Below are positions 4,669-42,817 of a stretch of 45,131 bases of DNA, piece after piece. The notes beneath the pieces are model-generated. The model was given only the letters and a program-made list of their open reading frames with translations. It ran no database searches and was not told the DNA's origin. Made by a program: the position numbers and the translations under genes. How positions within the stretch are numbered: position 1 is the first letter of the stretch; the number at the start of each line of letters is the position of its first letter. Origin of the DNA: a virus; the IMG/VR virus record IMGVR_UViG_3300025263_000001, positions 1-45,131 of that record; one strand, 5' to 3'.

Positions 4669-4943
4669 AAAAGCCCGCCTGCCTCGCTTATGGCGTTGCG
4701 CCCCGGCTTATCCCGGTCGAAGCGGCAGCCGCTTATTGCAGCATGACCATTGAGGAATTTGAAGATTTCTATTCAGGACGAGCAATCAAGTCCCGATCCG
4801 GGAAAACTCTCTACGATATTCGCCTGATTGACACATGGCTTGATCAGCGCGTCAGCATGTCAAAAGGTGCCACCGACCCGAAAACCTTGCTGAAAGGGCT
4901 AGGAGTTGGCGCGACCAAGAGTAAGACGGCGCATGTGGTGTGA
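4665..4943 (+). CDS. Excisionase-like HTH protein
   Basis: A 92-residue protein whose first 60 residues resemble a small winged-helix/AlpA-type module: L-I-P-V-E-A-A-A-A-Y-C, then a second helix, then a wing ending in L-Y-D-I and D-T-W-L. This is the usual form of phage excisionases and MerR-like directionality factors, which bend attP/attR DNA to drive excision. It lies directly before the integrase and overlaps its start, the classic xis-int order. Excisionase function is inferred from fold and position. Confidence 0.6.
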   Translation: MKKPACLAYGVAPRLIPVEAAAAYCSMTIEEFEDFYSGRAIKSRSGKTLYDIRLIDTWLDQRVSMSKGATDPKTLLKGLGVGATKSKTAHVV

Positions 4944-5976
4944 CGGGATCAAGGGGATCAAGTCGTATCAGATCGGCGACGTCTGGTATCATTACGATCG
5001 GAAGAGCGGGAAGAAGATCGAGGCCCAAAGGGGCACGCCTGCCTTCAAAAAAGAAGTCGAGCGACTTCGAGGCAAGCCGAAAGCAGATGACTTCTACGGC
5101 ACCATAGACGGTGCCATTCTGCTTTACGATCAGGATGACAGATGGAAATTCCTGCGCGAGAGCACCAAGGCGGATTACCGGAAGGTGCTGACCTGGCTGG
5201 AGACGGTTGGCTCTACGGCGCTTATCGACGTGACAAAGCCGTTTGCTGTCGAGCTGCGTAATCGCACATCAGAGGAAAAGGGATATCGGTTCGCCAACAA
5301 GACGTTGACGATCCTGAAGCTGTTAATGGATTGCGCGGAAGAGGCAGGCTGGATTTCTGAGCATCGCATCAAGGGCATCCCCTACGCAAAACGCCCACAA
5401 GAGCTCCCACAGCGCAACAAGCCGTGGACGGCTGATGAGTGCCGCCACATGCTCGCTAACGCCTCAGCGACTGTCCTGGTGCCTTTGGCGCTATGCATCT
5501 ACCTCGGCTTCCGAATAGGGGACGCGCTCACGATCAGCTCCAAGGATTATGACGGCCGATCGATCCGCAAGGAGACCAACAAGCGTGGCGTCTTCGTATC
5601 GATCCCCGTACCGGCTCCGCTGAAAAGGATTTTGGACAATCGCCCTCGTGGTGATTCGGTAACGCTCGCCTTGAAGGCGGACGGCACGCCATGGGCTTAC
5701 GGAGGCTATCACCAGCGGTTCAACGAACTGCGCGCCAAGCTTTCGACCGCCACCAAAGACAGGCCGATTCTCGTCCGCAGCGATATAACCCTTCACGGAT
5801 GCCGCCATACGGTAGCGACGATCCTCCGCGATGCGGGCTACAGCACGGAACAGGTGGCGCAATATCTCGGCCAGGAAGATGAAACGATGCCATTGCTGTA
5901 CGGCAAGAGCGCAGAATTGAATGCCGTAACGGGGCCAATGGCGGAAATTATCGCCCTGAAAGTCGGCGCGTCTTAG
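4906..5976 (+). CDS. int: Tyrosine integrase (phage integrase)
   Basis: A site-specific tyrosine recombinase of about 356 residues. Catalytic-domain residues are visible: Arg of the LGFRIGD motif near residue 203, the HxxRH box (HGCRHT) near 296-300, and the nucleophile Tyr in LLYGK near 331. The N-terminal ~60 residues form the arm-binding region and residues ~65-170 the core-binding SAM-like domain. The TTG at 4906 is placed by an AAGGG-type site ~9 nt upstream; ATG at 4933 is the alternative. The gene ends 51 nt before a tRNA-Cys fragment flanked by repeated TGTCTAA boxes, so that tRNA is the likely integration target. Confidence 0.88.
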   Translation: MARPRVRRRMWCDGIKGIKSYQIGDVWYHYDRKSGKKIEAQRGTPAFKKEVERLRGKPKADDFYGTIDGAILLYDQDDRWKFLRESTKADYRKVLTWLETVGSTALIDVTKPFAVELRNRTSEEKGYRFANKTLTILKLLMDCAEEAGWISEHRIKGIPYAKRPQELPQRNKPWTADECRHMLANASATVLVPLALCIYLGFRIGDALTISSKDYDGRSIRKETNKRGVFVSIPVPAPLKRILDNRPRGDSVTLALKADGTPWAYGGYHQRFNELRAKLSTATKDRPILVRSDITLHGCRHTVATILRDAGYSTEQVAQYLGQEDETMPLLYGKSAELNAVTGPMAEIIALKVGAS

Positions 5977-6164
5977 ACAGTTTCCGAAAATCTGTCTAAA
6001 CGACAAAACATAAGTGGTTGAAAAGATTGGAGGCCTCGCCCGGAATTGAACCGGGGTACAAGGATTTGCAGTCGCCTCTTGGTTATTGAAAAGCCTGCAT
6101 CAAATTGTCTAAAAGGCTGACCCGTCGCGCACAGGATCGTTAGTTTTTTCCTGTCATTGTCTAA
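5973..6164. repeat. Four TGTCTAA boxes around the attachment core (probable integrase arm sites)
   Basis: The heptamer TGTCTAA occurs at 5993-5999, 6106-6112 and 6158-6164, and inverted (TTAGACA) at 5973-5979. The first two form an 8-bp inverted repeat with an 11-nt loop right at the integrase stop, so that pair could also act as a weak terminator hairpin. The boxes lie on both sides of the tRNA-Cys core, as P and P' arm sites do for lambda-type integrases. The role as arm sites is inferred. Confidence 0.55.
6028..6073 (-). other. attP core: 3' half of a tRNA-Cys gene
   Basis: Read on the minus strand, this stretch is the 3' part of a tRNA: anticodon loop CTGCAAA with anticodon GCA (6067-6069), a T arm with TTCAATT loop and CCCGG/CCGGG stem, the 3' acceptor strand CGAGGCC, discriminator T and encoded CCA. 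GCA and U73 both identify tRNA-Cys. The 5' half is missing: no GGCCTCG acceptor strand or D arm is found upstream (6074-6130). Phages that integrate into tRNA genes carry exactly this 3' portion so that integration rebuilds an intact tRNA. Confidence 0.8.
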
Positions 6165-8472: not shown

Positions 8473-8819
8473 CAGCGGCTCCCGGTGTCATTGGTGTTGA
8501 AGGGACGAGACGGCGGATCGTAGGGCTCGACAAGCGGCTCGCCGTCTACCGCTACCGGCGGCGAGGCATACGGAAGCCCCGTGCGGGTCGCGAGGATCGC
8601 GGCAATATCCTGGGCCGTCGCAAAACCGGTATAGAAAAACGCCAGCGAGATAATGAGAACGATCCAGCCCCACGCGATCGTCTGGTTGACGACGGTGTCA
8701 GGCGCGTTCTCCATGACCATCAGCCGCCAGCAGGCGAAGACGATCAATGGGAAGATGACCGCACGCCGCCATTGCCAGCCAGGCTCGCCGCTGCGCTTCG
8801 CCTCTCTCGGCTTCGGCAT
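8472..8819 (-). CDS. Two-span membrane protein, holin candidate
   Basis: A 115-residue protein with two hydrophobic segments (about residues 20-35 and 50-68) and a hydrophilic Pro-rich C-terminus. It lies immediately downstream of the endolysin gene, overlapping it by one base. Class II holins have two spans and this genetic position, and they release the endolysin by forming holes in the inner membrane. The basic N-terminus (KPREAKRSGEP) fits a cytoplasmic end. Holin function is inferred from position and topology. Confidence 0.55.
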   Translation of the reverse strand: MPKPREAKRSGEPGWQWRRAVIFPLIVFACWRLMVMENAPDTVVNQTIAWGWIVLIISLAFFYTGFATAQDIAAILATRTGLPYASPPVAVDGEPLVEPYDPPSRPFNTNDTGSR

Positions 8820-9412
8820 CAGGCCGCATCCTGCAGGGCGTCATAGAAGCGCTTGGCATAGCCGGCGATATCGTTGGCGCGATCGAGGCCGTTGATAATT
8901 TTGCGGGCGTTCACCCAGTCCGAGCTTTTCGGCGTGAAGTAATCCCCCAGCTTCTTGCCGGTGAAGAGCCCGCGCGCCATGCCTTCGAACATGATCCGGA
9001 CGGCAACGTCATCCTGCATCGCCGCGTCTGGATTAACGACCAAGTCGACGCCGACGAGCTTGCTGAAGGTGGTGTAGTTTCGCCGGCCTGTCAGCTGGAC
9101 GAGACCCCTGCCCGCAAACCTGACGCCATCGCCGGTCTGAGTGTTGCCGAGATCGGCGGCCACCTTCGGCCTCTGGCCTTTCGGGTCGTACATGCGGAAG
9201 AAATAATCCGTGCCGCCACGCTCGTGGATCGGCTGCATGGTCTGCCCGGTTTCGTGGAAGGCCGTTGCCAGCATGTAAGCCAGCCAGCGAGGATCGATGA
9301 AAGCCTTTCCGGCCTCGTCCAGCACTGCCTCCATGCCATTGACTTGCGACTGCGAGAGCGACCCGCCGAACAACGACGAGCGAACGCCCGCATAAAAATG
9401 CGCACGATTCAT
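8819..9412 (-). CDS. Endolysin, GH19 chitinase-like muramidase
   Basis: A 197-residue peptidoglycan hydrolase of the glycoside hydrolase 19 lysozyme-like family used by many proteobacterial phages. Key motifs are A-F-H-E-T-G near residues 51-56 with the catalytic Glu, then HERGG and YFFRMYD, the RFAGRGLVQLTGRRNY block near 100-115, and a C-terminal INGL. It has no signal peptide, so it needs a holin for export. It begins the lysis cassette; a ribosome site (GGAGA) precedes ATG 9412. It is divergent from the acyltransferase gene. Confidence 0.85.
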   Translation of the reverse strand: MNRAHFYAGVRSSLFGGSLSQSQVNGMEAVLDEAGKAFIDPRWLAYMLATAFHETGQTMQPIHERGGTDYFFRMYDPKGQRPKVAADLGNTQTGDGVRFAGRGLVQLTGRRNYTTFSKLVGVDLVVNPDAAMQDDVAVRIMFEGMARGLFTGKKLGDYFTPKSSDWVNARKIINGLDRANDIAGYAKRFYDALQDAA

Positions 9413-9517
9413 TGGTGATGTCTCCGATGTTGAAAGAAAGGCACGCCGATGCGCGCCAGTGGTGCGGTGAGCGTCTATTTGCTAATGGCGTCTGCAAATC
9501 CGACAAATGGAGCAGAT

Positions 9518-10534
9518 ATGAAGATCGATGCCCGGGTGACAACAGTCGACTTTGCTCGCGGGCTTATGGCGTGCGCCGTAATGATCTACCATCTACTCTA
9601 CTGGGAAGGCATCGCAGACATCGAGCGTATAGGGTTCTATGCGGTCTACGGTTTTTTCGTTATCAGCGGGTTTTCACTGCACATTGCCTATACTGGCAAG
9701 CTCGGTAATTCCGCTCAATTGTGCAAGTTCGCAATTCGCCGGTATGCCCGGATCGCGCCTTTGTTTTATACAGCGCTATTTTTTTACTTGCTTCAAAACG
9801 GACTCCCTGACCGGTGGCCGCTCCTGCTTCTGGCAAACTTCTCACTGGGGTTGGGTTTTATGAACCCCGGCGACACATCTATTCTAGTTGGGGGATGGTC
9901 TATCGGTGTGGAGATAGTCTTTTATGTCTTCTTCCCGTTGGCCCTAATGTTGGCTGCGCAATCTGTTCGGCGAATAACTGCAATTGCGGCAGTGGCACTG
10001 GTAGCCCAGATAATCTTCGTGAATTACGTCCTCGCCGGCCTGAACAGCACAGGAGAAGGATGGGTGCGATATACCCAACCAGTATCCTTCGCTGGATATT
10101 TCGTGATGGGCATGTTTTTTGCAGAGCTTTATAGAGCACGACCGTACATGAAGGGTGCGCCCGTCATGCCGAAGCTAGCATTATACTGCCTCGTCCCTTT
10201 CGTTGTGATCCCGGCTTCTGAGCCATTGGATCTTCTGCGAGGATGGCGAGGCCTTATTCTGGCGGCATCAACAATTGGCCTCGTCGGCGCCGCGGCGTTT
10301 ATTGAAGAGCCAACGGGTCGCTTGCGCCAAGTCGCAAAGAAGTTAGGAGACCTCTCCTATTCGATCTACCTACTTCACCCGCTCGTGTTCATTTTTATTC
10401 GCGATCACGGTGTCCCGACCTCAACAGTCAGGATAGTCGCGACAATTGTGGTCTCTCTAATCGCAGCTAATCTTCTACACCGGTTCATCGAGATGCCGTG
10501 CCGTAATTTGGGGCGGCGGATCACCTCGGGATGA
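9518..10534 (+). CDS. Acyltransferase-3 family O-acetylase of surface polysaccharide
   Basis: A 338-residue polytopic protein of the acyltransferase 3 (OafA/YrhL-like) family, which moves acetyl or similar groups across the inner membrane onto sugars of O-antigen, exopolysaccharide or Nod-type glycans. The conserved first-span segment is visible: DFARG, then Y-H with the catalytic His. The Y-G-F-F-V-I-S-G-F motif, the R-R-Y-A-R segment and W-S-I-G-V-E-I follow. About ten membrane segments cover the protein. ATG at 9518 has GGAG at 9510-9513; a longer reading from 9449 is less likely. It sits between endolysin and tail genes on the opposite strand, with AT-richer codons than its neighbours, so it is a lysogenic-conversion gene by context. 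Confidence 0.85.
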   Translation: MKIDARVTTVDFARGLMACAVMIYHLLYWEGIADIERIGFYAVYGFFVISGFSLHIAYTGKLGNSAQLCKFAIRRYARIAPLFYTALFFYLLQNGLPDRWPLLLLANFSLGLGFMNPGDTSILVGGWSIGVEIVFYVFFPLALMLAAQSVRRITAIAAVALVAQIIFVNYVLAGLNSTGEGWVRYTQPVSFAGYFVMGMFFAELYRARPYMKGAPVMPKLALYCLVPFVVIPASEPLDLLRGWRGLILAASTIGLVGAAAFIEEPTGRLRQVAKKLGDLSYSIYLLHPLVFIFIRDHGVPTSTVRIVATIVVSLIAANLLHRFIEMPCRNLGRRITSG

Positions 10535-11957
10535 GGGATGCCAGGTTGTCGGCAAAGCCTTCTTCGAAGAAGTGCCCACTCACGCCATCAGGAACAGCCG
10601 GAAACTGGCGCGCCTGAACAAGGGTGGCGAGAGCTTCCGGGGATCGCACCAGCACGACGCCTTCGCTGCCTAGGACGTCAATCACAGATTCATGTGTTTC
10701 CAGCGCTAGAATGCCTGTGGGTGTCCCAATGCCGAGGGACTCGTAGTGACACGTCGAGGAGATGCTCAGATGCATGTCAGAGAGTGCGATCAACTGGTGG
10801 GTCCCAACTTCCGACTGGCCAGAGACAATGTTGATGCGTCGGTCGTCACCGAATTTTTCCCGATAGAAGCTTTCATCTCCATTGTAGGCAGGATGCATCT
10901 TGAGGTTCAACTTTACGTCAGGGCCACATTTTTGAAGGAAGCCGGCAAGAAATTCCCCCAGCTCTTCCATCGCAACGCCCTGCGCGGTAATTGTGAGGAC
11001 AGGTGAGCCACCTGGCTTCCATTCCCGTTCCCTGATACGTCGAGCATTATCGATGTAGGACGCACCAACGCACGCAATACGACCCTCTTTTTCGAGGAGC
11101 GTTCCGGACAGCGAAGCCTTAGAATGTTCGCCGTAAACCGCGAAAGTAGACGGGGCAAGCAAACCCATCCTCAGGTCTGGAGCGATGTCGTCCGGCAGGA
11201 TGTTGGGGTGGATATTAGTGCAGACCCCATGCTGCACCTCGACAAATGGGATGCCCAACTGATCCGACGCATGCATCAAAGCGAACGCGCCGCTGTCGGC
11301 AGCGAGAACCGCTTTTGGTTTAATCCTCTTCAGCAACGCCTTATAGAGCCGCGTTCGCCACCAGAAGACATTAAACACTCTGGAAACACGCGCGGCATGG
11401 AATGCTACGAGACCCGTTTCCGATTGGAGTACACTGGCGATCCGTTCGAAGGCTGGGTGGCGACGATAGCGCGGAGCGACACGCCCTAGTATCGCACTCA
11501 AGGCGATGATGGATGTATCATCAAACACCGGCGGAACCTTAGCCATAGCGCGAATGTCATCATAACCAGGTACGTCCGACGACGATATTTTCGCGCCCGC
11601 ATCCATGCGATCGAGAATGTCATCGAAATAAATATCTCGGTATTTGTCGCCATCAAAAACGCGGAGCGCTGAGTCGAAAGTTTTGCAGACATACGCGGCC
11701 GGACGGATGCCTCTGACTACCTGAAAAGCCCCGGTTCGCAGGCTCTTCAGAATGCTCGATCTCCCCACATTTTGACGCCGAGGAGCAAGGTTTTGTAGCC
11801 CTAACGAGACCTCGAAACGCACCAACTGCCAGGGGTTAACTCCGTCGACACGCAACCCGAGCAACCCATTCCGAGTCTCAACATCACGCACAAGGCGGGA
11901 GACCTCTGCCTCTGTCATTCGTTTGTGATCAAGCATGCGCCACCGGAAGTCGTTCAT
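10521..11957 (-). CDS. Glycan transferase-like protein (capsule/polysaccharide biosynthesis type)
   Basis: A 478-residue soluble protein. The C-terminal half looks like a GT-B-type Rossmann fold: PKAVLAADSG, then VEVQHGV (a QHG motif shared with CDP-glycerol and capsular polysaccharide transferases), a glycine segment, LNLKMHPA, and a nucleotide-sugar-site-like IALSDMHLSISSTCHYESLGIGTP. The helical N-terminal half is not recognised. The 3' end overlaps the convergent acyltransferase gene by 14 nt. The substrate is unknown, and an alternative is a non-catalytic polysaccharide-processing protein. The context with O-acetylase and polymerase-like genes supports a role in changing the host surface glycan. 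Confidence 0.6.
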   Translation of the reverse strand: MNDFRWRMLDHKRMTEAEVSRLVRDVETRNGLLGLRVDGVNPWQLVRFEVSLGLQNLAPRRQNVGRSSILKSLRTGAFQVVRGIRPAAYVCKTFDSALRVFDGDKYRDIYFDDILDRMDAGAKISSSDVPGYDDIRAMAKVPPVFDDTSIIALSAILGRVAPRYRRHPAFERIASVLQSETGLVAFHAARVSRVFNVFWWRTRLYKALLKRIKPKAVLAADSGAFALMHASDQLGIPFVEVQHGVCTNIHPNILPDDIAPDLRMGLLAPSTFAVYGEHSKASLSGTLLEKEGRIACVGASYIDNARRIREREWKPGGSPVLTITAQGVAMEELGEFLAGFLQKCGPDVKLNLKMHPAYNGDESFYREKFGDDRRINIVSGQSEVGTHQLIALSDMHLSISSTCHYESLGIGTPTGILALETHESVIDVLGSEGVVLVRSPEALATLVQARQFPAVPDGVSGHFFEEGFADNLASLIPR

Positions 11958-11983
11958 GTGTATTGTCTGCGCAGGAGGTGGAC

Positions 11984-12004
11984 ATGTTCTTTCACAAGTT
12001 GTAG
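11984..12004 (+). other. Five-to-six-codon mini-ORF with strong ribosome site
   Basis: An AGGAGGT sequence (11973-11979) is followed four bases later by ATG and only six sense codons (MFHKL plus one more codon at most, ending TAG). It lies in the divergent gap between the transferase gene and the polymerase-like gene, in the same frame as the latter but separated by several stops. It may be a leader peptide or the residue of a recombination junction. The polymerase-like gene itself lacks a comparable ribosome site. Confidence 0.25.
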
Positions 12005-12061
12005 GTGAGATGGGCTATCTAACCTGTCTAAGTGGAAACTTCTAGCGGCAACTGCAGAAAC

Positions 12062-13291
12062 ATGATTTTTCGTCTGATAGTCGCGGCAGCGTTGTTCTTT
12101 CCAGTTGTCGGATCGTTCCTATTAGAGCTCGGGGTCTGGGGGCAAGGAATTAATCAGTTCGGCAATCCGAACGGTGCAACATTAGCCATGATAGCTTTTG
12201 TCGCAATGTTCTTGGCGGTTATCGCATGGCTTGAGCGAACGAAGCTGTTGAGCCAGCTTGGAGCAGGCCGCGCAGTTTCAGCAGATTTAGATCTAACCCC
12301 TGTTCGCTGTGCGGTGCTTCTCGTCCCGATGGCCGGATACGTGCTGTTCGTGATCGGAGGCATTCATACGATACTGGATGGCGTGGGAGCTGGCAAATTC
12401 CGGGCCGAGCTCGGCAATGGCGGCGCGCTCGGATATTTGATCCTGAAGTTCTATGCCCCCGCGCTGTTCAGCGTGACCGCATTGTGCATGGCGACCACAC
12501 GCCGCTTGTCACTGTTTTCAGTCGCAAGCCTAGTGCTTTTGGCCGTCATATCCATCTCTTTTGGTTACAAGAGCGCGATTATAATGGCGCTGCTCCCCAC
12601 GGCAGTCCTGCTGTTTTGGAACTGCCGCTTGCGATCTGTCCTCTATTTGGGCGGAGCAGTGACAGTAGCAATTGTCGTCTCTTATTGGTTTATGAAGCCC
12701 GACGACCAGGTGAAGATCCCGCTTCTGGCTGCCATTGGGTACCGCGCATTTGTCCTGAACGCGGAAGGCGCCTGGAAAATATGGGATATCTACAGCAGTG
12801 GCGGAGATCTCCCGAGCTACCTAAACACTCTGCCAGCAGTTTTCGGTGACCGCGTATACTCGGCCCTGACGGGCATCACGCGATCCGATCCAGAAGCCTG
12901 GGTCATGTCGCATTTCAGTTTGATGGCAACGCACCTTTCTGGCTACAAGCCCGAATATCTCCTTGCAACGGGACACAACAACAGCGCGGGCGTGATGGCG
13001 GAAGGTATCATTGCCGGCGGGGTCGCCGGGATGTTGGCGTTTGCAGCTGTTGCCGCAGTGATCACGAACGCCCTCTACCACTTTATCGAGAACCGGCTGG
13101 AAGCTCAGGATTTCGCAGCAGCGTCGGTAGCGGCGTGCTATTTCGTCTACAGCCTGATCGCATGGATGATCGGCGGAGGCGTTGTCGAAATCATTCACCT
13201 CTCCATAATCGTAGGAACGTTGAGCAGTTTTGCATTGCTCAGGTGGACCACCGGATGGAGACCATCCTGGCGCCTTCAGGAGGCATCATGA
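12062..13291 (+). CDS. Polytopic O-antigen polymerase (Wzy)-like protein
   Basis: A ~409-residue membrane protein with around ten to eleven hydrophobic segments and a larger non-membrane loop near residues 215-285 (with GDRVYSALTG). This topology and low sequence conservation are typical of Wzy-type O-antigen polymerases, which join lipid-linked repeat units in the periplasm. ATG at 12062 is used; an in-frame GTG at 12032 would add ten residues, and neither has a strong ribosome site. The stop overlaps the next membrane protein start by 4 nt, so the two are coupled. The Wzy assignment comes from topology and neighbours, not from a clear signature. Confidence 0.55.
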   Translation: MIFRLIVAAALFFPVVGSFLLELGVWGQGINQFGNPNGATLAMIAFVAMFLAVIAWLERTKLLSQLGAGRAVSADLDLTPVRCAVLLVPMAGYVLFVIGGIHTILDGVGAGKFRAELGNGGALGYLILKFYAPALFSVTALCMATTRRLSLFSVASLVLLAVISISFGYKSAIIMALLPTAVLLFWNCRLRSVLYLGGAVTVAIVVSYWFMKPDDQVKIPLLAAIGYRAFVLNAEGAWKIWDIYSSGGDLPSYLNTLPAVFGDRVYSALTGITRSDPEAWVMSHFSLMATHLSGYKPEYLLATGHNNSAGVMAEGIIAGGVAGMLAFAAVAAVITNALYHFIENRLEAQDFAAASVAACYFVYSLIAWMIGGGVVEIIHLSIIVGTLSSFALLRWTTGWRPSWRLQEAS

Positions 13292-14652
13292 CCGATCAGA
13301 CCGCTTCGCTATCATATTCGCCCACCACCCTGTGGGACTGGTATCGGCGCGGCGGCGACATTCTGGTCTACCTTGCAATTTCCCTGAGCATCGCAATCTT
13401 CGTCGGCCAAGAGAGGATGATCTCTCGGGGCGATTTGGCGTATTGGCTTCTCGTCGGCCCTGCCTTGCTCATGCCGTTGCTTCGCGTCCGGCAAACGATG
13501 GAGAACCTCCTGCTTGGGGTAGCGCGCCCCATCGCCGCATTCGGCATTCTCAGCGGGGTTTGGTTCCTCTTCCAACGCGACTTTGGCGCCATCCCCCCAA
13601 TCTTCCTGATCGTTTGGGTGGCTGGTTGGGCCTGCCGCTCTGAAGCAAGGATAAGCGCGAGAACTCTATTCGCCTTAACGTTGGTCTTCTATCTTGCGGG
13701 CAGCGCATCCTTCCTCATGCAGCCGCCCTATGGAAATTTCCCTTGGTTGATGGAGCATTTAGCCCAACCCGAGGCCGCCGAAGGCAACAGCGATGTTGAA
13801 CTTGCAGTGCCGGAACAAGAGCGTGCTGGATTGAACATCAACGCCTGGGGCATCCTGCCAAACCAGACGGCGGTAGCATTCCAGCCATGGCGGATATCCG
13901 TAACTCCAAACATCGCCACCTCGGGGATATTCTCCCTGATGGTTCTGCTGGTGCTCGTTCGCCGCTTCAGACCGAAGCCGATCGAGGCCCTGACCGCAGT
14001 CACCGCCATTTATTTCGCGATTCTATCTTTCGTTAGGGCGGTGTTCGTCAGCATAGCACTCTTTGCGGCCACACTAGGCATTATGGCCGTATTGCCCAAT
14101 CGTCCTGGCTTGCGGGTCGCTGCAGCCATGTGCATGACTGTCGGCCTGACCCTGTTCGTGGCTTTCTCTCCGTTTCTGCTTTATGCCCTGCAGGATTGGA
14201 GCATCTTGTCTCGAATGTTCCTTCGCGGGCAGACTGGCATGTCCACAGCCGATATCTATCGGCAGATGTACCGCCCGTGGCTCTGGGGCGAGCACATGAA
14301 GCTATTCTGGAGCAGCCCCTATCTAATGGGATATGGCAGCGAGCTCGCCACCAGCGCCCTCAAAAACATCATTAACGCGGGCCAGATGCGATCGGATTCC
14401 GTTTCGTTCCTAACGCGGATGATCGCAACTTATGGCATCCCAGCTTTCGGGATCATCATCTTCCTTGTTGAGCGGTGCTATCGCCATGCAAAGGACAACG
14501 ACATCTGGGCCGTGGCGGTCCTGTCAGTCATGATCTGGCTGATGATGAGCTGGGGCAGCATCTTCCACCCCAGCAACGGCATGTTCGCGCTTGCGTTTCT
14601 TCTTGTCGGAAAAGGATCAAGAGCATTGGATGGCGACGCGCGCGCCCAATGA
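13288..14652 (+). CDS. Polytopic O-antigen ligase/polymerase-like protein
   Basis: A 454-residue membrane protein with about eleven spans and a long periplasmic loop late in the sequence (about residues 320-375: LFLRGQTGM, then YRPWLWGEH and a GYGSE motif). Such a late loop with W-x-x-x-P-x-x-GYG is characteristic of the O-antigen ligase/polymerase (WaaL/Wzy) superfamily. ATG 13288 follows AGGAGG and overlaps the previous stop (ATGA). It converges on the tail gene, ending exactly one base before that gene's stop codon. A phage carrying two polymerase-like proteins plus an O-acetylase fits serotype conversion. Confidence 0.65.
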   Translation: MTDQTASLSYSPTTLWDWYRRGGDILVYLAISLSIAIFVGQERMISRGDLAYWLLVGPALLMPLLRVRQTMENLLLGVARPIAAFGILSGVWFLFQRDFGAIPPIFLIVWVAGWACRSEARISARTLFALTLVFYLAGSASFLMQPPYGNFPWLMEHLAQPEAAEGNSDVELAVPEQERAGLNINAWGILPNQTAVAFQPWRISVTPNIATSGIFSLMVLLVLVRRFRPKPIEALTAVTAIYFAILSFVRAVFVSIALFAATLGIMAVLPNRPGLRVAAAMCMTVGLTLFVAFSPFLLYALQDWSILSRMFLRGQTGMSTADIYRQMYRPWLWGEHMKLFWSSPYLMGYGSELATSALKNIINAGQMRSDSVSFLTRMIATYGIPAFGIIIFLVERCYRHAKDNDIWAVAVLSVMIWLMMSWGSIFHPSNGMFALAFLLVGKGSRALDGDARAQ

Positions 14653-15183
14653 TCACCACTCTTCGATCTCCACTGCATAGTTGAGGGAAAATGAGAACGC
14701 CGATCCAAGCGCATTGGCATTGATCGGCGTGAGGCCGGGGTTCCCGCTGTTCTGCACACCGATCCTCAGGAATGCATCACCGCCGAGGCCAAGCAAACTG
14801 ATGTCTGCCGCAAGGGCTGTCGACAGGATCATCCTGCCCGCGATGAAGCGAAAGCTGTTCCACTGGCTGTCGATATGGACGTTACCATCAGACCCGTTGT
14901 AGCCGATCGATACGCGAGCCTCTACTGCGGACGTGGAGCCGGCAGTAGCGTCGACAACGCCATAGAGAATGTTGCCAACGCGCCAAGATCTCGCCTTGAC
15001 TAGAGACAGCGATCCGAACCCCGTCAACGTCGGCGTATAAGCGACTGGTGCTGAGACAAACGGGATGTCGGCCGGGATGCCGAGCAGCGTCCTGATCGCG
15101 GCAGCATCCGAGGCCGACAGCACCTGCCTCCCTATTGCGGTCGCATTCTGGATCCTGCCTTGGTCGAGCTTTGTGTTTGCCAT
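14653..15183 (-). CDS. Tail spike/fiber accessory protein
   Basis: A 176-residue protein following the tail spike gene. The N-terminus has the pattern VLSASDAAAIRTLLGIP often seen in phage tail-fibre proteins; the remainder is beta-rich with regular Gly/Ser, fitting a trimeric fibre tip or collar. It has no enzymatic motif. The gene is 11 nt downstream of the spike gene and abuts the converging conversion cassette. It is probably an extra receptor-binding or spike-associated subunit. Confidence 0.6.
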   Translation of the reverse strand: MANTKLDQGRIQNATAIGRQVLSASDAAAIRTLLGIPADIPFVSAPVAYTPTLTGFGSLSLVKARSWRVGNILYGVVDATAGSTSAVEARVSIGYNGSDGNVHIDSQWNSFRFIAGRMILSTALAADISLLGLGGDAFLRIGVQNSGNPGLTPINANALGSAFSFSLNYAVEIEEW

Positions 15184-15194
15184 GTCAATCTTCC

Positions 15195-17192
15195 TCAGCA
15201 GGCGTTCGGGGTTGAGAGGATCAAGTTGGCGACGACATCGTGTCCGAGAGGTCCGATGTGCTGCTCATCAACGAATAGGGCTGCGTAGGCCGGCGCAGAC
15301 ATGGACGCTTTGAGATCCATGAAACGCTCGTACACCGGCACGTAAATCACGCCAGACATCGCACCGACTTCCTGCTGAGCAGTCAGATAGGGACCAAACC
15401 CTGCGAGCATGCCAGCGTTCTGAGTGGCAGTGGCCGACGACAGCGTCACGGTGATGCCGGCTGCCTGGGCTTGGTTGACCATCCACGCCAGGTCGTCCTT
15501 CATGCTGGCTGCTGAATAGCCATCGAAGAAGTCGTTGATGCCAGTCATGATGTGAACGGCCTGAGGCTGACGGGCCACGACATCGGCCGTGAAGCGCGCG
15601 CGCATCTCCGATGCGTTTTCACCGGGCACGCCTTTATTGAGACCAAACGCCCACCTGCGCCCGTTCTGGACCTTCGTCCGGAACGAGTCCTTTTCGGTAA
15701 CCCCAGGCCTGACTGCATAGGTGACGCTATCGCCCATCCAGACGAGGTCACGCCTTACACCGGCTGGATACATACCAGAAAGGCGCAGCGTGCCTGCAGC
15801 ATCATAGGGGAGCGGGCCACCGCCTCCGTTGGCTCGGTTCTGAAACAGAATGTCTGTCCTGTTGGCGAGTTGTACCGCTTGGATGTCATCGCCTGTAAAT
15901 GTGATCCCCTGGGCAGCGATGACCACAGGTGTATTGATGCCAGCTGAAATATACGGCAGCCCATCCACGTACATGTCGCCCGACCCGGTGCCTCCGGTCC
16001 AGACAAGTTCGAGGTTGAAGAACACCATCCCACTCACGAGACGGTAGGTGCCAGACTGGACGCTATAGGTTGCCGTTCCCGCGACAGTGCCGCCCTTGAC
16101 AACCGGCATGATGCTGCCGAACTCCCCGAAGAGGCTGACGACACTCGGGCCGAGTTTTGAATACTCGACGGACTCGTCTTCAATCTGCTCGTTGCCGACG
16201 GCCCCCAGCTGGAGTTGATCTGTCCCGACCGTGCCATCGCTGGGTGCGCCGAGCTCTCGCACTTCCGTTTGGACAACGGCCTCCCATGGGATGCCGGCCC
16301 CCGGATCATCAACGAACGTGAAGGTGTTGCCGCTGATCGTGTAGACCGACGAGGTGTGGTCCTGGATAACGCCGCCGAGCTTGATATCGATGTTGTTGAT
16401 GCTACCGATCGCCACCCCGACGTTGTACGGGCCGACGTTGGCCGGCGCTCCGGTACCTGTCGTGCCGCGCGCAGACGCTCTGTTATAGGTGACGGCGCTC
16501 TGTGCGACGAGTGCCCACTCCTTCGCAGACTTTGTGAGTGCACCACCAGGCAGCGTTCCTTCTGCCCACGCCTCCGCGAGAGCCGCCGCCGCTTCAGATG
16601 CAGCCTGTATCGCCGCGCTCGCAATGTCGCTGGCGAGGCGGAACTCTGAACCGGATTTGACGCCAAGAACCTGCATCCCAGCCGTGAAAGCTCCCGCCGG
16701 GATCTCATTGCCGCTGCTCGTCTTCATCGTCAGAACGGCGTTGCCATTGAACTGGACCGTCACGGGGCTTGCGTCGTTCGCCTCGGCGACGTCGAGAATG
16801 ACCATCACTCCATCAACGATAGGGAGCGCCGATGTCGCCTTGATTGCGTTGGACGTTCCCTCGCCGCTGTCGGAAGCCGGGATGAAGGAGAAGGGCAGCG
16901 GCAGTGCATAGACGAACGAGCCCGTGCCAGGTGCACCCAGCTTTCGCCAGATGCCGTTATTTGCCGGCGTCGGGTCTGCATAAACCCAAACGGTCTGATC
17001 CGGGTTGTAGGAGAGATCGGCAAACAGTTCCGCCTTCGTGGCCTTCGCCTCCGAGCCAGCCCCCACGCCGACGGCATTCAGGATCGTCTCGTACTGTGTC
17101 AGCAGCGATCTGATTTGATCCTTGCTCGGCTGATATGGGTCGGCGGAAGGCCCGTCGGCGAACACCGTCGCCGCGTTAGGGGAAAAGGCCAT
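15195..17192 (-). CDS. Tail spike with C-terminal SGNH/GDSL esterase domain
   Basis: A 665-residue virion protein. The N-terminal part (to ~residue 200) contains a phage tail-collar-like segment and an Ala-rich helix. Residues ~205-475 are beta-rich. The C-terminal ~180 residues are an SGNH hydrolase: block I W-M-G-D-S near 486, a block II Gly (GVPG), block III T-G-I-N-D near 551, and the catalytic D-E-Q-H near 642. Such domains on tail spikes remove acyl groups from capsule or O-antigen, as in coliphage G7C gp63.1. It lies beside a phage-encoded acyltransferase, so receptor acylation is a likely theme. Substrate is inferred. Confidence 0.8.
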   Translation of the reverse strand: MAFSPNAATVFADGPSADPYQPSKDQIRSLLTQYETILNAVGVGAGSEAKATKAELFADLSYNPDQTVWVYADPTPANNGIWRKLGAPGTGSFVYALPLPFSFIPASDSGEGTSNAIKATSALPIVDGVMVILDVAEANDASPVTVQFNGNAVLTMKTSSGNEIPAGAFTAGMQVLGVKSGSEFRLASDIASAAIQAASEAAAALAEAWAEGTLPGGALTKSAKEWALVAQSAVTYNRASARGTTGTGAPANVGPYNVGVAIGSINNIDIKLGGVIQDHTSSVYTISGNTFTFVDDPGAGIPWEAVVQTEVRELGAPSDGTVGTDQLQLGAVGNEQIEDESVEYSKLGPSVVSLFGEFGSIMPVVKGGTVAGTATYSVQSGTYRLVSGMVFFNLELVWTGGTGSGDMYVDGLPYISAGINTPVVIAAQGITFTGDDIQAVQLANRTDILFQNRANGGGGPLPYDAAGTLRLSGMYPAGVRRDLVWMGDSVTYAVRPGVTEKDSFRTKVQNGRRWAFGLNKGVPGENASEMRARFTADVVARQPQAVHIMTGINDFFDGYSAASMKDDLAWMVNQAQAAGITVTLSSATATQNAGMLAGFGPYLTAQQEVGAMSGVIYVPVYERFMDLKASMSAPAYAALFVDEQHIGPLGHDVVANLILSTPNAC

Positions 17193-17216
17193 GTCTTTCT
17201 CCAGAAGGAAGATGAG

Positions 17217-19418
17217 TTAGATCGTGATCGTCGATGACGCTTGCGTCGCAGAGGGAATGCCGGAGCCGTTCTCGGCGCCGGCCCAGTATTTCCATGTCCC
17301 AACGCCGGGTGTGTCGGTGAACGAGATCGTTTGGTTGGCGGTCACGTTGTATTGGCCGATCAGCGTTGCGGCCGCGAAACTTTGCGACGTAAGGCCTCGC
17401 TTGAAGACGAGGAAACGCGTGTTGTCGTTTGCGGCCTTGGCGCTGACCGTCACGGTTCCGGCGGCGTTGCTGGTCGTCATGTTCGTCGGCACGCCCGGCG
17501 CTGTCGGATCGACCGTTGACGTAACGTTTGCGGTGATCGACCAAGGCCCGTAGTCGCCATCGGAAGCGATAAATGCCACCTGAATATCCAAGAGCTTGTT
17601 TGACGGCACGACGTTCGTGCTCATGTCGATAAAGCCGCCAGCCGGCACAGGGTTCGGGAACCGCTGCTCGATCCATGGGCCGGGCGTGCCGGAGCCCGCA
17701 TCAGCGAGGCGATACCGCACGACCGGGATAAGGCTGCTGTCGGCCGGGTCGATGATGACCACACGGACATAGACGCTGTCGCCGTTGGGGCGAGCTTGAA
17801 CCAGGTTGATGACCGGCGTCAGGATGCCGGCAGGGCTAGTTCGCGGTGGTGTGGAAGGCTGGCGTCCTTCGTCTGTCGCCGGGTTCCATGCGTCGATGTT
17901 GTCGGGGTGCTTCATGATATCCATCACGAAGCCACCCTGCAGTAGCGACAGGACGGATTTGCGGTTCTCGACGATCTTGCCGTCCAGCCTCGGAAGCATG
18001 TTCGGCGTCACCATGCGGACCCATCGGCTGTATACCGAATTGATACCGGAGAGACGGACGTTGATCTGCCCGGTCACCTTCTGCTGAAGGCGAAGCCAGT
18101 CACGCTTGCCGAGCCGGCGCGCCTGCCGCCACTGCTGCACCCACTGGTAATTCGCTTCCTGCGCGAGAACGCGGCCGGCGATCAGCTGAGCGGCAGTGTC
18201 CTCGAAATAATCCGTGTCGGATGTCGCATAGCCGATCTCGGGATAGCAGAATTTCGGGACGAGGCGATTGCACTCGTCCTCGAACAGCACGTCATATTCG
18301 ATCTGATGTCCGACGATATCGGCATCCGTCAGTGTCGTCAGATACTTTGCCCGGAACTTGCCGACAATGAACAGCAGAGCCCCGTCGCCTCGCTCGCAGA
18401 TCCAGCCATCGCAAGACGAGAGGATCGCGTTGGTCCCCGCCTTCGGGTCGTTTTCTGTCGTGTCGAAGCCATTGCACTCGTACCGGCGCTCAAAGCCTCC
18501 GCCTGCGAGCGGCACGAGCTCGTCGCAAACGTCGGCTTCTTCCTGCCACATGTCGAGCACAGGAAGGATCGCGCGCTTGTAATCCCGGCGATGACCGAAC
18601 TCGTTGAAGCACTGGTGCCAGGCCATGATGACTGCGGCGTTCCGCGTCCATTGCCATGTCGCGGGGTTCTCCGGGTCCTGAAGCGGGTCGCGAAAATCCC
18701 AGCAGAGCGCCATATCGGCCTCGACCGAAAGCTGCGGCGGGCCATAAGGGAACGTCTTCTGCTGTCTCTCGGCCTTGTCGCTGGTGCAGATCATGGCAAC
18801 GGATGCCTGTCCGTCCCCGCGATGATTGTTCGTCCACACTCCCGCGGAAGCAAGATCGCCCGAGATGATGGTGTAAGGTGTCTCCGGCACAAGACCTAAG
18901 CGGCTCAGGATCATGACGTTGGTTTTGTAGTTCGTACCCGGGTTGATCTCGCTGTTGACCGCGAGCGTCACCTCGTCATCGTGAAGCCAATATCGATTGA
19001 CCGACTTGATACGGTGGCCGGCAATGGCCTGCACCGCGTAGAGCTTCTTGCCGATTGCCTCCCATAGCATGAAGGCGCCTGCGATCCTGTTTCGGCCGAC
19101 GCCCCACCAGCGATAGGGAATGGACTGGATCTTCGGGATTTTGCCGTCTTCAGGCTTCGGCGGCTTCGGAGCGAGCAGCGCTTGAATACCGATCGAGATC
19201 GCCGTGGTCGCGATGGCGGCAGCACCCGTTGCCAGCAAGCCAGCGGTCGTCGCCGAGAACCCGAGCGACGTGAATAGTGTCGTGAACAGCGGAGTGAAGA
19301 TCGGATCGTAATGCGCTGTCGTGCCACGCAGAAACCGATCCTGCCATTCCCACCGGTGAGCATCGAAATAGTGTTCGGCCTCGCTCGGGACGCTTTCATA
19401 GGTCGTCTTCAAGCTCAT
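17217..19418 (-). CDS. Tail tip/hub protein (host-specificity J-like)
   Basis: A 733-residue tail protein in the position of the lambda J/central tail hub. The N-terminus contains a hydrophobic stretch (about residues 45-80) typical of this family, then WWGVGR and a large conserved tail-hub region with many Trp and Cys. The C-terminal third has two fibronectin-type-III-like beta modules (VDPTAPGVPTN boundary near residue 640). ATG at 19418 overlaps the upstream stop by 4 nt; a GTG at 19433 is possible. It binds the tail tip and probably anchors the spike encoded next. Confidence 0.75.
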   Translation of the reverse strand: MSLKTTYESVPSEAEHYFDAHRWEWQDRFLRGTTAHYDPIFTPLFTTLFTSLGFSATTAGLLATGAAAIATTAISIGIQALLAPKPPKPEDGKIPKIQSIPYRWWGVGRNRIAGAFMLWEAIGKKLYAVQAIAGHRIKSVNRYWLHDDEVTLAVNSEINPGTNYKTNVMILSRLGLVPETPYTIISGDLASAGVWTNNHRGDGQASVAMICTSDKAERQQKTFPYGPPQLSVEADMALCWDFRDPLQDPENPATWQWTRNAAVIMAWHQCFNEFGHRRDYKRAILPVLDMWQEEADVCDELVPLAGGGFERRYECNGFDTTENDPKAGTNAILSSCDGWICERGDGALLFIVGKFRAKYLTTLTDADIVGHQIEYDVLFEDECNRLVPKFCYPEIGYATSDTDYFEDTAAQLIAGRVLAQEANYQWVQQWRQARRLGKRDWLRLQQKVTGQINVRLSGINSVYSRWVRMVTPNMLPRLDGKIVENRKSVLSLLQGGFVMDIMKHPDNIDAWNPATDEGRQPSTPPRTSPAGILTPVINLVQARPNGDSVYVRVVIIDPADSSLIPVVRYRLADAGSGTPGPWIEQRFPNPVPAGGFIDMSTNVVPSNKLLDIQVAFIASDGDYGPWSITANVTSTVDPTAPGVPTNMTTSNAAGTVTVSAKAANDNTRFLVFKRGLTSQSFAAATLIGQYNVTANQTISFTDTPGVGTWKYWAGAENGSGIPSATQASSTITI

Positions 19419-39990: not shown

Positions 39991-41498
39991 AGGAAGCTCC
40001 CTTGCTGGTTTTGGTGAAGATCGGTGAACATGGTTCGCGGCCCGTCCCATCCGACGGACTTGCGTTGCGGCCAGCGGGTGTGACGCGACAGGGCGAGCAC
40101 AATCTCTGCCTTGTTGCGCACGTCGCCCATAACCTCTTCCCATACGACGTGGAGGTCATCGATCTCGGCGGGCTCGTTTTCATCCATGACGGCCTCCGCA
40201 CGGAACGGCGTGATGACGTGGTCCGCGTCCTTCTCGCAGGAACCGAACAAGTCGGCAGCCTTCGGGCGCCGGCCGATCACCTTCATGAAGGTCTTGCGGT
40301 TGATGGTCCGATCGGTGATTTCGAAGATGTTCTTCTTGAGCTGCGCTGCCGCGACGATCGGGAGCTTGTAGTTCCCGGCGAAGACCTTCAGCTTGCGGGT
40401 GACGATCGAGGAGAACTCGGCGTCGTTCGTCCTGGCGTGGGTGCTGTCTTTTTCAACGAGGCCGACGTGGTCGACGACAGCCATGCCGCCAGGATTGCGT
40501 TTGGAGAAGTCGGCAAGGTCGCGATCGATCTGCCGGAGCGTCATCGTGTCATCGCGGATGAATACCCGATCCTGCCAGGTTTCGGCATTGCGGCGCGCTG
40601 TCTCAAGCCTCTCGTAATCATGGTCGCTGACTTTTCCGCGAACCTGCTGCCAGGCTTTGATATCGGTGAGACGGGCAAGCGCTCGGCGGGCGAGCTCCTC
40701 ATCCTTCATTTCACCGGAGTTGATCCAGACCGGGTGTCCGTTGATCGCGGCGCCGGCAACCATCTGCTCGATCAGCGAAGACTTGCCGTGCTTGGTCATG
40801 CCGCCGATGATGACCTCTTGGCCCGGCAACAGCGGGCCGATCATCTGCATCAGGAAGGGAACGCCATAGTCGACGCCTGACAGGCCTTTGCCCTGGTAGG
40901 CCAGCGCGGTCGACGCAAGCGAGCGCTTCGACGCCTGAGCCAGCGTCTTTGTCTTCTCCTCACCACTCAGCGCACGGCTTACAGCTTCGAACTTCGCCCG
41001 CAGAGCGTCGAACTCGTCCATGATGTCGAGCTCTTTGGAATAGGCCGTCTGCTCCATCTTCTGGCTGAGAGTGAGGCAGGCACGGCGCGCAGCTGTCTCA
41101 ATGATGGCGCGGGCATAGTCCGGCGCGTTCAGTACGCTGACGGCCGCCTGTACGAGCTTGGCGAGGTATTGGGCCATGGTGAGATCGCCCACCATGCCAT
41201 CGTTGACGAAGTTCTTGACGGTGACAGGATTTGCCACCCTGCCGGCGCGACGGAGGTCAACAGCTGCATCGAATATCTGGCGGTGGACCGGCTCATAAAA
41301 GTGGTCCGGCTCGATCGGTACGCGTAGAGCGTCGAGCGCCTCGTTATTCATGAGGATGGCGCCGAGCAGCGCCTGCTCTGCGAGGATGTTACAGGGAACC
41401 TCCTGCACTTCCTCTGCGTGGCCGAAGTGAAGCGCGCGCTCCTCTTCGGTGAACTCGTCCTGCTTGCGCTTGTGGAGATCGGATGGATGAGCGTTCAT
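39987..41498 (-). CDS. dnaB: Replicative DNA helicase, DnaB-like
   Basis: A 503-residue hexameric helicase that unwinds DNA at the phage fork. The N-terminal domain (from Q-A-L-L-G-A-I-L, about residues 43-150) is DnaB-like. The RecA-type ATPase has a Walker A G-M-T-K-H-G-K-S-S and a Walker B A-V-V-D-H-V-G near residue 340, with a later QLKKN. Phages use it with a host or phage loader. It is coupled to the fusion gene upstream by a 4-nt overlap. Confidence 0.85.
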   Translation of the reverse strand: MNAHPSDLHKRKQDEFTEEERALHFGHAEEVQEVPCNILAEQALLGAILMNNEALDALRVPIEPDHFYEPVHRQIFDAAVDLRRAGRVANPVTVKNFVNDGMVGDLTMAQYLAKLVQAAVSVLNAPDYARAIIETAARRACLTLSQKMEQTAYSKELDIMDEFDALRAKFEAVSRALSGEEKTKTLAQASKRSLASTALAYQGKGLSGVDYGVPFLMQMIGPLLPGQEVIIGGMTKHGKSSLIEQMVAGAAINGHPVWINSGEMKDEELARRALARLTDIKAWQQVRGKVSDHDYERLETARRNAETWQDRVFIRDDTMTLRQIDRDLADFSKRNPGGMAVVDHVGLVEKDSTHARTNDAEFSSIVTRKLKVFAGNYKLPIVAAAQLKKNIFEITDRTINRKTFMKVIGRRPKAADLFGSCEKDADHVITPFRAEAVMDENEPAEIDDLHVVWEEVMGDVRNKAEIVLALSRHTRWPQRKSVGWDGPRTMFTDLHQNQQGSFL

Positions 41499-42817
41499 GC
41501 TGCACCATCCATCGCAAACAGGTTGACGGTCTTTGCCTCATCTAGCTCCGCAATGTTGCGTACAGCCTGGCGGAAGTAGGACGGCTTAAGCTCGAAACCT
41601 ATACCCTTGCGGCCAGCAGCCACCGCGCCGTAGACCTCGCTTCCGATACCGAGGAACGGCGTGAGCACCACGTCACCCGGGTTGCTCCAAAGTTCGATGC
41701 ATCGTTCGATCACATCCAATTGTAGCGGGGAAATATGCTGCTCGTCTTTTTCGTCTCGGCCAGCGCGATACTGCAGGGTTCTGGTCTGGTTGATGTCCAT
41801 CCAGACCGGAGAGGCGTAACGCTGCCAAACCTCGATCGAGAACCACTTTTCAGCGTCAGCGGACGATTTTCCCGATGCGATGCGGCTGTCTACGCTAGCA
41901 GGCTCGTTGCCATAGCCGACGTAGCGGTCGAACATGCCGTCGACCGGCTCGGGATTATCACCTGGCTTGCGGAACATGAGCATGTAATCGGCGAGCCCCT
42001 GCCCGCTGATGGTGCTGTCTTTGGTGATCTGCTTGTGTAGCAGCCTTATCGACTTGGTGCGCTGCTGCGCGACTACCGGGTCTTTCCAGATGCAGACCTC
42101 GGAATGGAATATCCAACCGGCGTCCTCGTAGGCTCTGACGACCTCGCCGCGAAAGTCGCGCATGCCGATGTGGCCGTGGCGTATCTTGCTGGTCGGCAAC
42201 TGCATGCAGTGGACGCTGCAAATTCTGCCGGGCATGGTAACCCTGAGCAGTTCCTGAATGAGGAACTGGTAATGCGCCCAAAACCCATCCTTCTCATTGT
42301 TAGAGATGTCTCGGTCCGAGTTGGAGAATTTATAAAGCCCCTCAAAGGGAGGAGAATGGATACCAAAGTGAATGCTGTTGGTCGGTATCGCTCGGATCAA
42401 CTCAATGGAGTCGCCTTCATAGATTGCATATCTGTCCGTCACGACTTGGTTGACGCACTTGATGTCCGATATCACCGATCGTTTCCTTCCAAGATATTTG
42501 ATGGCTGTCTCTAAAATCTCTGTTTTGTCCTTAGCCATGCCGAGCATGTTGTTGCAGTGCTGGCACAGGACGCCGCGAATGTTCCCGGTCTCGTGACAGT
42601 GATCGACGTGCCACCCGCTTGACGTCGCGGGTTTAGATGTCTGGCAGATCGCACACTTGCCGCCCTGCATTGACAGGATTGTTGCCTTGCCTTCCACGGT
42701 GATGCCGTATCTCTGCTTGATAAGGCTGCGCCGGTTGCCTTCGCGGCGAGCGTCCGGATTTGCCGCATATCTAGCTCTTGCCATGGCGTTCTTGTGCGCC
42801 CGCTTTTCATCGCTCAT
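41495..42817 (-). CDS. Endonuclease VII-DNA methyltransferase fusion
   Basis: A 440-residue protein with two enzyme domains. Residues ~35-105 match recombination endonuclease VII: CAIC near 55-58, the HVDHCH metal site near 70-75, and CQHC near 85-88. Residues ~115-440 are a DNA methyltransferase with the catalytic motif S-P-P-F near 155 and the AdoMet-binding F-L-G-I-G-S-E near 387. The motif order (IV before I) and SPPF suggest a beta-class, N4-cytosine or N6-adenine enzyme. ATG 42817 shares one base with the helicase stop. Fusion of these domains is unusual; the DNA is visibly AT-richer than its neighbours. Confidence 0.75.
   Translation of the reverse strand: MSDEKRAHKNAMARARYAANPDARREGNRRSLIKQRYGITVEGKATILSMQGGKCAICQTSKPATSSGWHVDHCHETGNIRGVLCQHCNNMLGMAKDKTEILETAIKYLGRKRSVISDIKCVNQVVTDRYAIYEGDSIELIRAIPTNSIHFGIHSPPFEGLYKFSNSDRDISNNEKDGFWAHYQFLIQELLRVTMPGRICSVHCMQLPTSKIRHGHIGMRDFRGEVVRAYEDAGWIFHSEVCIWKDPVVAQQRTKSIRLLHKQITKDSTISGQGLADYMLMFRKPGDNPEPVDGMFDRYVGYGNEPASVDSRIASGKSSADAEKWFSIEVWQRYASPVWMDINQTRTLQYRAGRDEKDEQHISPLQLDVIERCIELWSNPGDVVLTPFLGIGSEVYGAVAAGRKGIGFELKPSYFRQAVRNIAELDEAKTVNLFAMDGAA

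Follow-up and report, generated by a model that had tools for sequence, protein, structure and literature searches.

Serotype conversion is known chiefly from phages of enteric bacteria and Pseudomonas. The genes of Pseudomonas phage D3 cause both serotype conversion and exclusion (PMC4815439; PMC9658991), the D3 record reading, in order, tail fibre (orf27), iap (-), oac (+), wzyβ (-), orf30.5 and endolysin. In Shigella phage Sf6, morons that consist of an acyltransferase-3 (AT3) gene only suffice for conversion (PMC9558356). Here we describe a four-gene locus in the virus record IMGVR_UViG_3300025263_000001, analysed as one stretch of 45,131 bases (the window), in which family searches detected RecT, integrase, tail, helicase and lysis genes and whose tail genes resemble those of the Rhizobium phages RHph_N28_2 and RHph_TM3_3_3. 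The four intact genes lie between a GH19-type endolysin gene and the distal tail-fibre genes (14653-17192, minus strand), and we consider them, with a probability of about 80%, to be a lysogenic (serotype) conversion cassette, carried by a temperate phage with tRNA-Cys as its integration site. This reading, which the initial annotation had put forward and which the analysis supports, is based on the firm AT3 assignment, the occurrence of the partner genes in chromosomal Wzx/Wzy clusters, the foreign composition, the D3-like slot, the glycan genes of related phages, the temperate nature of the phage and its SGNH-tipped fibre.

Comparison with described conversion systems

In both D3 and the window the cassette is located between tail fibre and endolysin, has genes on mixed strands and includes an AT3 acetylase, joined by wzyβ in D3 and by the putative Wzy genes in the window, the acetylases being the sole alignable pair (profile match of D3 Oac to the window AT3, E 1.3e-41). 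The window phage belongs, however, to another phage family and encodes, in addition, a GT-B-like glycosyltransferase as well as a second Wzy-like protein, and its AT3 protein (338 aa) is without the C-terminal extension of D3 Oac (687 aa). Sf6 Oac and PhiV10 Oac (PMC9558356) are likewise single-domain AT3 proteins of temperate phages, whereas in the window AT3 is joined by the glycosyltransferase and two Wzy-like genes. Salmonella phage epsilon15 (PMC4815439) carries a Wzy_C-type polymerase (Wzy-beta with a Wzy_C domain), the type predicted for one of the window genes, but inhibits host polymerase and acetylation, whereas the window has an acetylase and no recognised inhibitor. The gtrABC operons of P22, epsilon34 and Shigella phages are comparable in that phage-borne genes alter the O-antigen in the lysogen, as proposed for the window; the window transferase is, by contrast, a soluble GT-B-like protein, and no match to the GtrA flippase or the GtrB bactoprenol glucosyltransferase was obtained in family searches with the four cassette proteins. 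Chromosomal Wzx/Wzy clusters (L083, L084, L093, L094 and L095, with NeuB/NeuC, WbuX and HisH/HisF) possess the same glycosyltransferase type beside either Wzy-like type, but the phage is devoid of sugar-synthesis genes and Wzx and combines both Wzy types with AT3.

The four genes of the cassette

The initial annotation had placed four glycan-related genes, three on the plus strand and one on the minus strand, between endolysin and tail genes and had described them as AT-richer than their flanks, with which coordinates (Table 1), family searches and base composition agree. Their GC contents, in cassette order, are 52.2, 55.1, 55.1 and 56.9%, as compared to 60.8 +/- 1.8% in the 21 other genes of at least 600 bp, and the corresponding GC3 values are 0.575, 0.597, 0.632 and 0.695 versus 0.754 +/- 0.043 elsewhere. 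The GC3 deficit amounts to about 3-4 standard deviations in the first three genes and to 1.4 in the fourth, which is only mildly atypical. Base composition by itself is weak evidence of foreign origin, because the early region at ~4-6.5 kb is likewise rather AT-rich (56-57%); the synteny breaks and chromosomal homologues presented below are stronger. Contigs of two other datasets match the window at 100% over the whole or part of the cassette, so that the latter is not an assembly accident.

Table 1 Coordinates of the window features discussed in the text
Feature	Position	Strand	Basis
Integrase	4906..5976	+	phrog_1 integrase 6e-33
3' end of tRNA-Cys, predicted attP	6027..6075	-	reads as tRNA-Cys anticodon and T arm
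Endolysin (GH19), conserved left neighbour of slot	8819..9412	-	PF00182; phrog_181 endolysin 2.6e-41
Exchanged module (putative conversion cassette and distal fibre)	9457..17216		DNA homology breaks versus close relatives
AT3 (AT3-only, 338 aa), predicted surface-polysaccharide O-acetylase	9518..10534	+	PF01757, PHROG
GT-B-like glycosyltransferase, 478 aa	10521..11957	-	fold and gene context
Spacer from which glycosyltransferase and Wzy-like A genes diverge	11958..12061		coordinates
Wzy-like protein A, 409 aa, ~10 membrane segments, predicted repeat-unit polymerase	12062..13291	+	weak TIGR04370 and homologue
Wzy-like protein B, 454 aa, ~9 membrane segments, predicted Wzy_C-type polymerase or ligase	13288..14652	+	via homologues
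Small fibre-tip or fibre-associated protein	14653..15183	-	weak head-fibre PHROG; 42% counterpart at same place in L043
Distal tail fibre, C-terminal SGNH/GDSL esterase domain	15195..17192	-	PF13472, tail fibre PHROG
Central tail protein (J-like), conserved right neighbour of slot	17217..19304	-	phrog_5616 8e-169; 67 related viral loci

The first gene is firmly assigned to AT3, as initially proposed: its product matches PF01757 above cutoff (E 9.1e-25), phrog_3333 (O-acetyltransferase, 2e-49) and phrog_6705 (O-antigen acetylase, 1.5e-11), and shares the RxxR motif and the His with other phage AT3 proteins. For genes 2-4, family searches gave no matches or sub-cutoff ones, and protein searches of 50,697 phage records revealed no relative; when viral contigs were scanned with profiles of genes 2 and 4, the matches came solely from contigs of the same phage. 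PDB sequence searches were negative or weak.

The minus-strand gene overlaps the AT3 gene convergently by 14 bp at its 3' end. A Pfam search with it gave no match, and NF046086 (glycosyltransferase) was matched below cutoff (5.6e-6). The predicted structure, of medium confidence (pLDDT 66), resembles the UDP-GlcNAc 2-epimerase, LpxB and glycogen synthase folds. Chromosomal relatives were found at 63, 47 and 45%, with QHG and K-x-HP motifs in common. In L083, the homologue follows a Wzx flippase gene and a full-length homologue of Wzy-like A is encoded three genes on; the cluster also contains NeuC (2e-134), NeuB (6e-115), a PseF-like cytidylyltransferase, WbuX and HisH/HisF homologues. In both L094 and L095 its immediate neighbour is a homologue of Wzy-like B; these clusters likewise include Wzx, WbuX, HisF and HisH, with no NeuB in the stretch read. 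A Wzy_C protein is encoded after the 63% relative in L077. L084 and L093 hold this glycosyltransferase type together with NeuB, WbuX and HisF homologues, so that a NeuB-type synthase is near it in L083, L084 and L093, accompanied by NeuC and a PseF-like gene in L083 and L084. Because of these neighbours, the glycosyltransferase type appears to work with Wzx/Wzy systems for nonulosonic or acetamidino sugars, and the sugar it transfers may itself be a nonulosonate. The best reading of the gene, labelled glycan transferase-like at the outset, is that of a transferase with relatives in nonulosonate/acetamidino-sugar clusters; of the accompanying suggestion, that it may alter or block the host pathway, the blocking role was rejected, since the gene neighbourhoods of its relatives point to a transferase.

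Both remaining proteins had been called Wzy/WaaL-like. Wzy-like A, whose reading frame is open from 12032, matches TIGR04370 (oligosaccharide repeat unit polymerase) below cutoff (E 0.007), and its full-length homologue (30%, E 2e-49), encoded in the Wzx/NeuB/WbuX cluster, itself scores 0.003; 397 genomes of the order, scanned with a Wzy-like A profile, yielded no match. The start of the Wzy-like B gene overlaps the stop of the Wzy-like A gene by 4 bases. Homologues of Wzy-like B (30%, E ~1e-51) lie beside those of the glycosyltransferase in L094 and L095 and match Wzy_C just under cutoff (6e-7 and 3e-7), and a weaker homologue in L077 passes the Wzy_C cutoff, which suggests that B, by way of its homologues, is of the Wzy_C type. 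The two phage proteins would thus correspond to two partner kinds seen separately in chromosomal clusters. Wzy sequences are in general very divergent; a comparison of both proteins with the Wzy_C protein of the related phage locus L015 was negative.

The spacer that separates the glycosyltransferase gene from the divergently oriented Wzy-like A gene is the likely site of divergent promoters. It also contains, upstream of Wzy-like A, a 29-aa moderately hydrophobic open reading frame of the size of D3 Iap, which is no better than chance.

The exchanged block, its variants and the lysogeny genes

What had been annotated as an inserted cassette proved to be part of a larger exchanged block. DNA homology to L018, the closest cassette-free relative (85-86%), ends at 9456 and restarts at 17217; the left breaks in L005 and L027 are at 9416 and 9426, respectively, and the right break of most other close relatives falls at 17211-17224. 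As these breaks flank all three, the block contains the cassette, the tip gene and the distal (receptor-binding) fibre. The fibre matches a tail fibre PHROG (3e-53) and PF13472 (7e-12, residues 486-629), with intact SGNH blocks (GDSV...GIND...DxxH). In L043 the homology runs on into the fibre gene to 16225, the fibre end beyond differs, and two AT3-SGNH genes replace the cassette. SGNH fibres are common in Klebsiella prophages; esterase activity has been demonstrated for two of them, and acetyltransferases are encoded by 5-30% of these prophages per K-locus (PMC13123978). An esterase fibre beside an acetyl-adding gene suggests a write/erase pair.

We have surveyed 64 related loci with a readable gene for the J-like central tail protein (J), 53 after dereplication at 97%. 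Recognisable glycan-modifying genes occur downstream of J in about 18-19 of the 53, the window's phage included, a count that is approximate as the L040 methyltransferase match is below cutoff, the L015 genes are possibly situated past the lysis genes and several contigs are cut off early. The glycan gene met most often in these phages is AT3 alone (AT3 is found in L015, L028, L035, L043, L050, L053, L054, L064 and L067); others are PMT_2 (L008), RgpF (L029 and L032), WcbI (L025) and GT2 with Capsule_synth (L044). Relative to J, AT3/MBOAT genes number 17 downstream and 0 upstream, and polytopic proteins of >250 aa 24 and 0, a contrast that is descriptive only, the upstream part being structural genes.

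Several of these loci carry further gene sets. Two sialyltransferase-like genes, a CST-I (GT42)-GT8 fusion and a GT29-GT1-type fusion, lie beside the fibre in the related prophage L046 (15644-19334; also in L069), and such genes seem unusual in a rhizobial phage. The slot of L006 (13847-16993) is occupied by genes for a methyltransferase, for a GT2 and for an ABC ATPase whose Wzt_C domain is of the O-antigen export type, while the five-gene minus-strand cassette of L022 (14110-20422), in which two MBOAT acyltransferases are accompanied by one AlgX-type and one GDSL protein, resembles an alginate-type acetylation set. In L015 (17047-19921) AT3 occurs along with a Wzy_C protein, a pair similar to that of D3 and perhaps located past the lysis genes. 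In L002 (RHph_N28_2, 15128-17209), a 693-aa protein with ~7 membrane segments (EVB88_034, unannotated) occupies the same slot on the strand opposite to the late genes.

A conversion cassette requires a temperate carrier, which the integrase, attP and host junction indicate here. The attP-like 3' end of tRNA-Cys adjoins the integrase gene, just beyond the gene end, and contig 3300025273_000017 leaves the window sequence exactly at this point (L071:1-81) and continues into 80 bases of other DNA, the pattern expected for a prophage-host junction. Because of these three features the phage is very probably temperate. Elsewhere in the window, a single frame (41495-42820) has an endonuclease VII match at its start and a DNA methyltransferase over the rest, a possible nuclease-methyltransferase fusion.

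Proposed mechanism, alternatives and significance

We infer that the lysogen expresses the cassette, and that the glycosyltransferase would add or swap a sugar of the host repeat unit, the activated sugar probably being the host's own, because genes for sugar synthesis are absent from the phage. The Wzy-like proteins would then join the altered units by a different linkage, or attach the chain, and AT3 would O-acetylate the product. The polysaccharide recognised by the SGNH-tipped fibre would thereby be changed, and the same phage, together with others using this polymer, would be shut out. In a more specific and rather speculative form, which we consider unlikely as a whole, conversion would be directed at nonulosonic acids: host CMP-nonulosonate (or a neighbour sugar) would enter the repeat unit, the two polymerase-type proteins would rebuild the chain, AT3 would write acetyl esters that the SGNH fibre erases on the next host, and the whole would be exchanged as a specificity-plus-immunity module.

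A number of points weigh against the conversion reading. The identity of Wzy-like A comes from weak similarity and one 30% homologue, and its predicted model is of low confidence (pLDDT 39). Neither Wzy-like protein could be aligned to D3 Wzyβ, and no Iap-like host-polymerase inhibitor (D3 iap is a 96-bp gene) was recognised in family searches; of the D3 gene content cited in the initial annotation (O-acetylase, Wzy, polymerase inhibitor), the O-acetylase is firm, the Wzy type is predicted and the inhibitor has no recognisable counterpart. A consensus scan gave no promoter-like match in the spacer, its promoter-like matches being at chance level and its terminator-like matches mildly above chance. 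Furthermore, L050 and L062 have nearly identical fibres (99%) and different downstream genes, which argues against a strict coupling of fibre and cassette; co-inheritance of the two is confounded in this comparison, as relatives with a common cassette also share most compared genes.

Among the alternatives, the cassette might alter a capsular polysaccharide or exopolysaccharide rather than the lipopolysaccharide (LPS) O-antigen and chiefly improve host fitness on roots or in soil, exclusion being secondary. This departs from the conversion reading in polymer and benefit, within the same mechanism class. The chromosomal clusters of the homologues are not tied to LPS here, Wzx/Wzy systems make capsule and exopolysaccharide too, and relatives possess the capsule-type genes Capsule_synth and WcbI; the fibre-adjacent site, the fibre esterase and the D3 parallel, however, favour a receptor-related role, and we regard this alternative as possible but not likely. 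It is distinctly improbable that only AT3 functions in exclusion, the other three genes being passengers or host DNA in decay. AT3-only morons are enough in Sf6 (PMC9558356), and AT3 alone prevails in the related phages, but all four frames are intact, genes 3 and 4 overlap in an operon-like manner and the cassette pairs the transferase with the Wzy types that its homologues pair with. Finally, despite the foreign composition and the chromosomal nearest relatives of the glycosyltransferase, a chimeric contig was rejected, as the same junctions recur at 100% identity in contigs of two other datasets, and accidental capture of host DNA without a phage role is likewise extremely unlikely, since related phages hold functionally similar genes at the same site.

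Overall, what is new in the proposed conversion cassette is its gene combination, the connection between its glycosyltransferase and clusters of the nonulosonate type, and its place in an exchange module that includes the fibre and in which many relatives carry other glycan-modifying genes. The layout of D3, with additional gene types, is now seen in a rhizobial phage family other than that of D3, and natural variants of the locus are available in dozens of relatives. It thus becomes testable whether a receptor-binding fibre and receptor-changing genes move and evolve together. Moreover, the cassette bears on surface polysaccharides that are important in root symbiosis.

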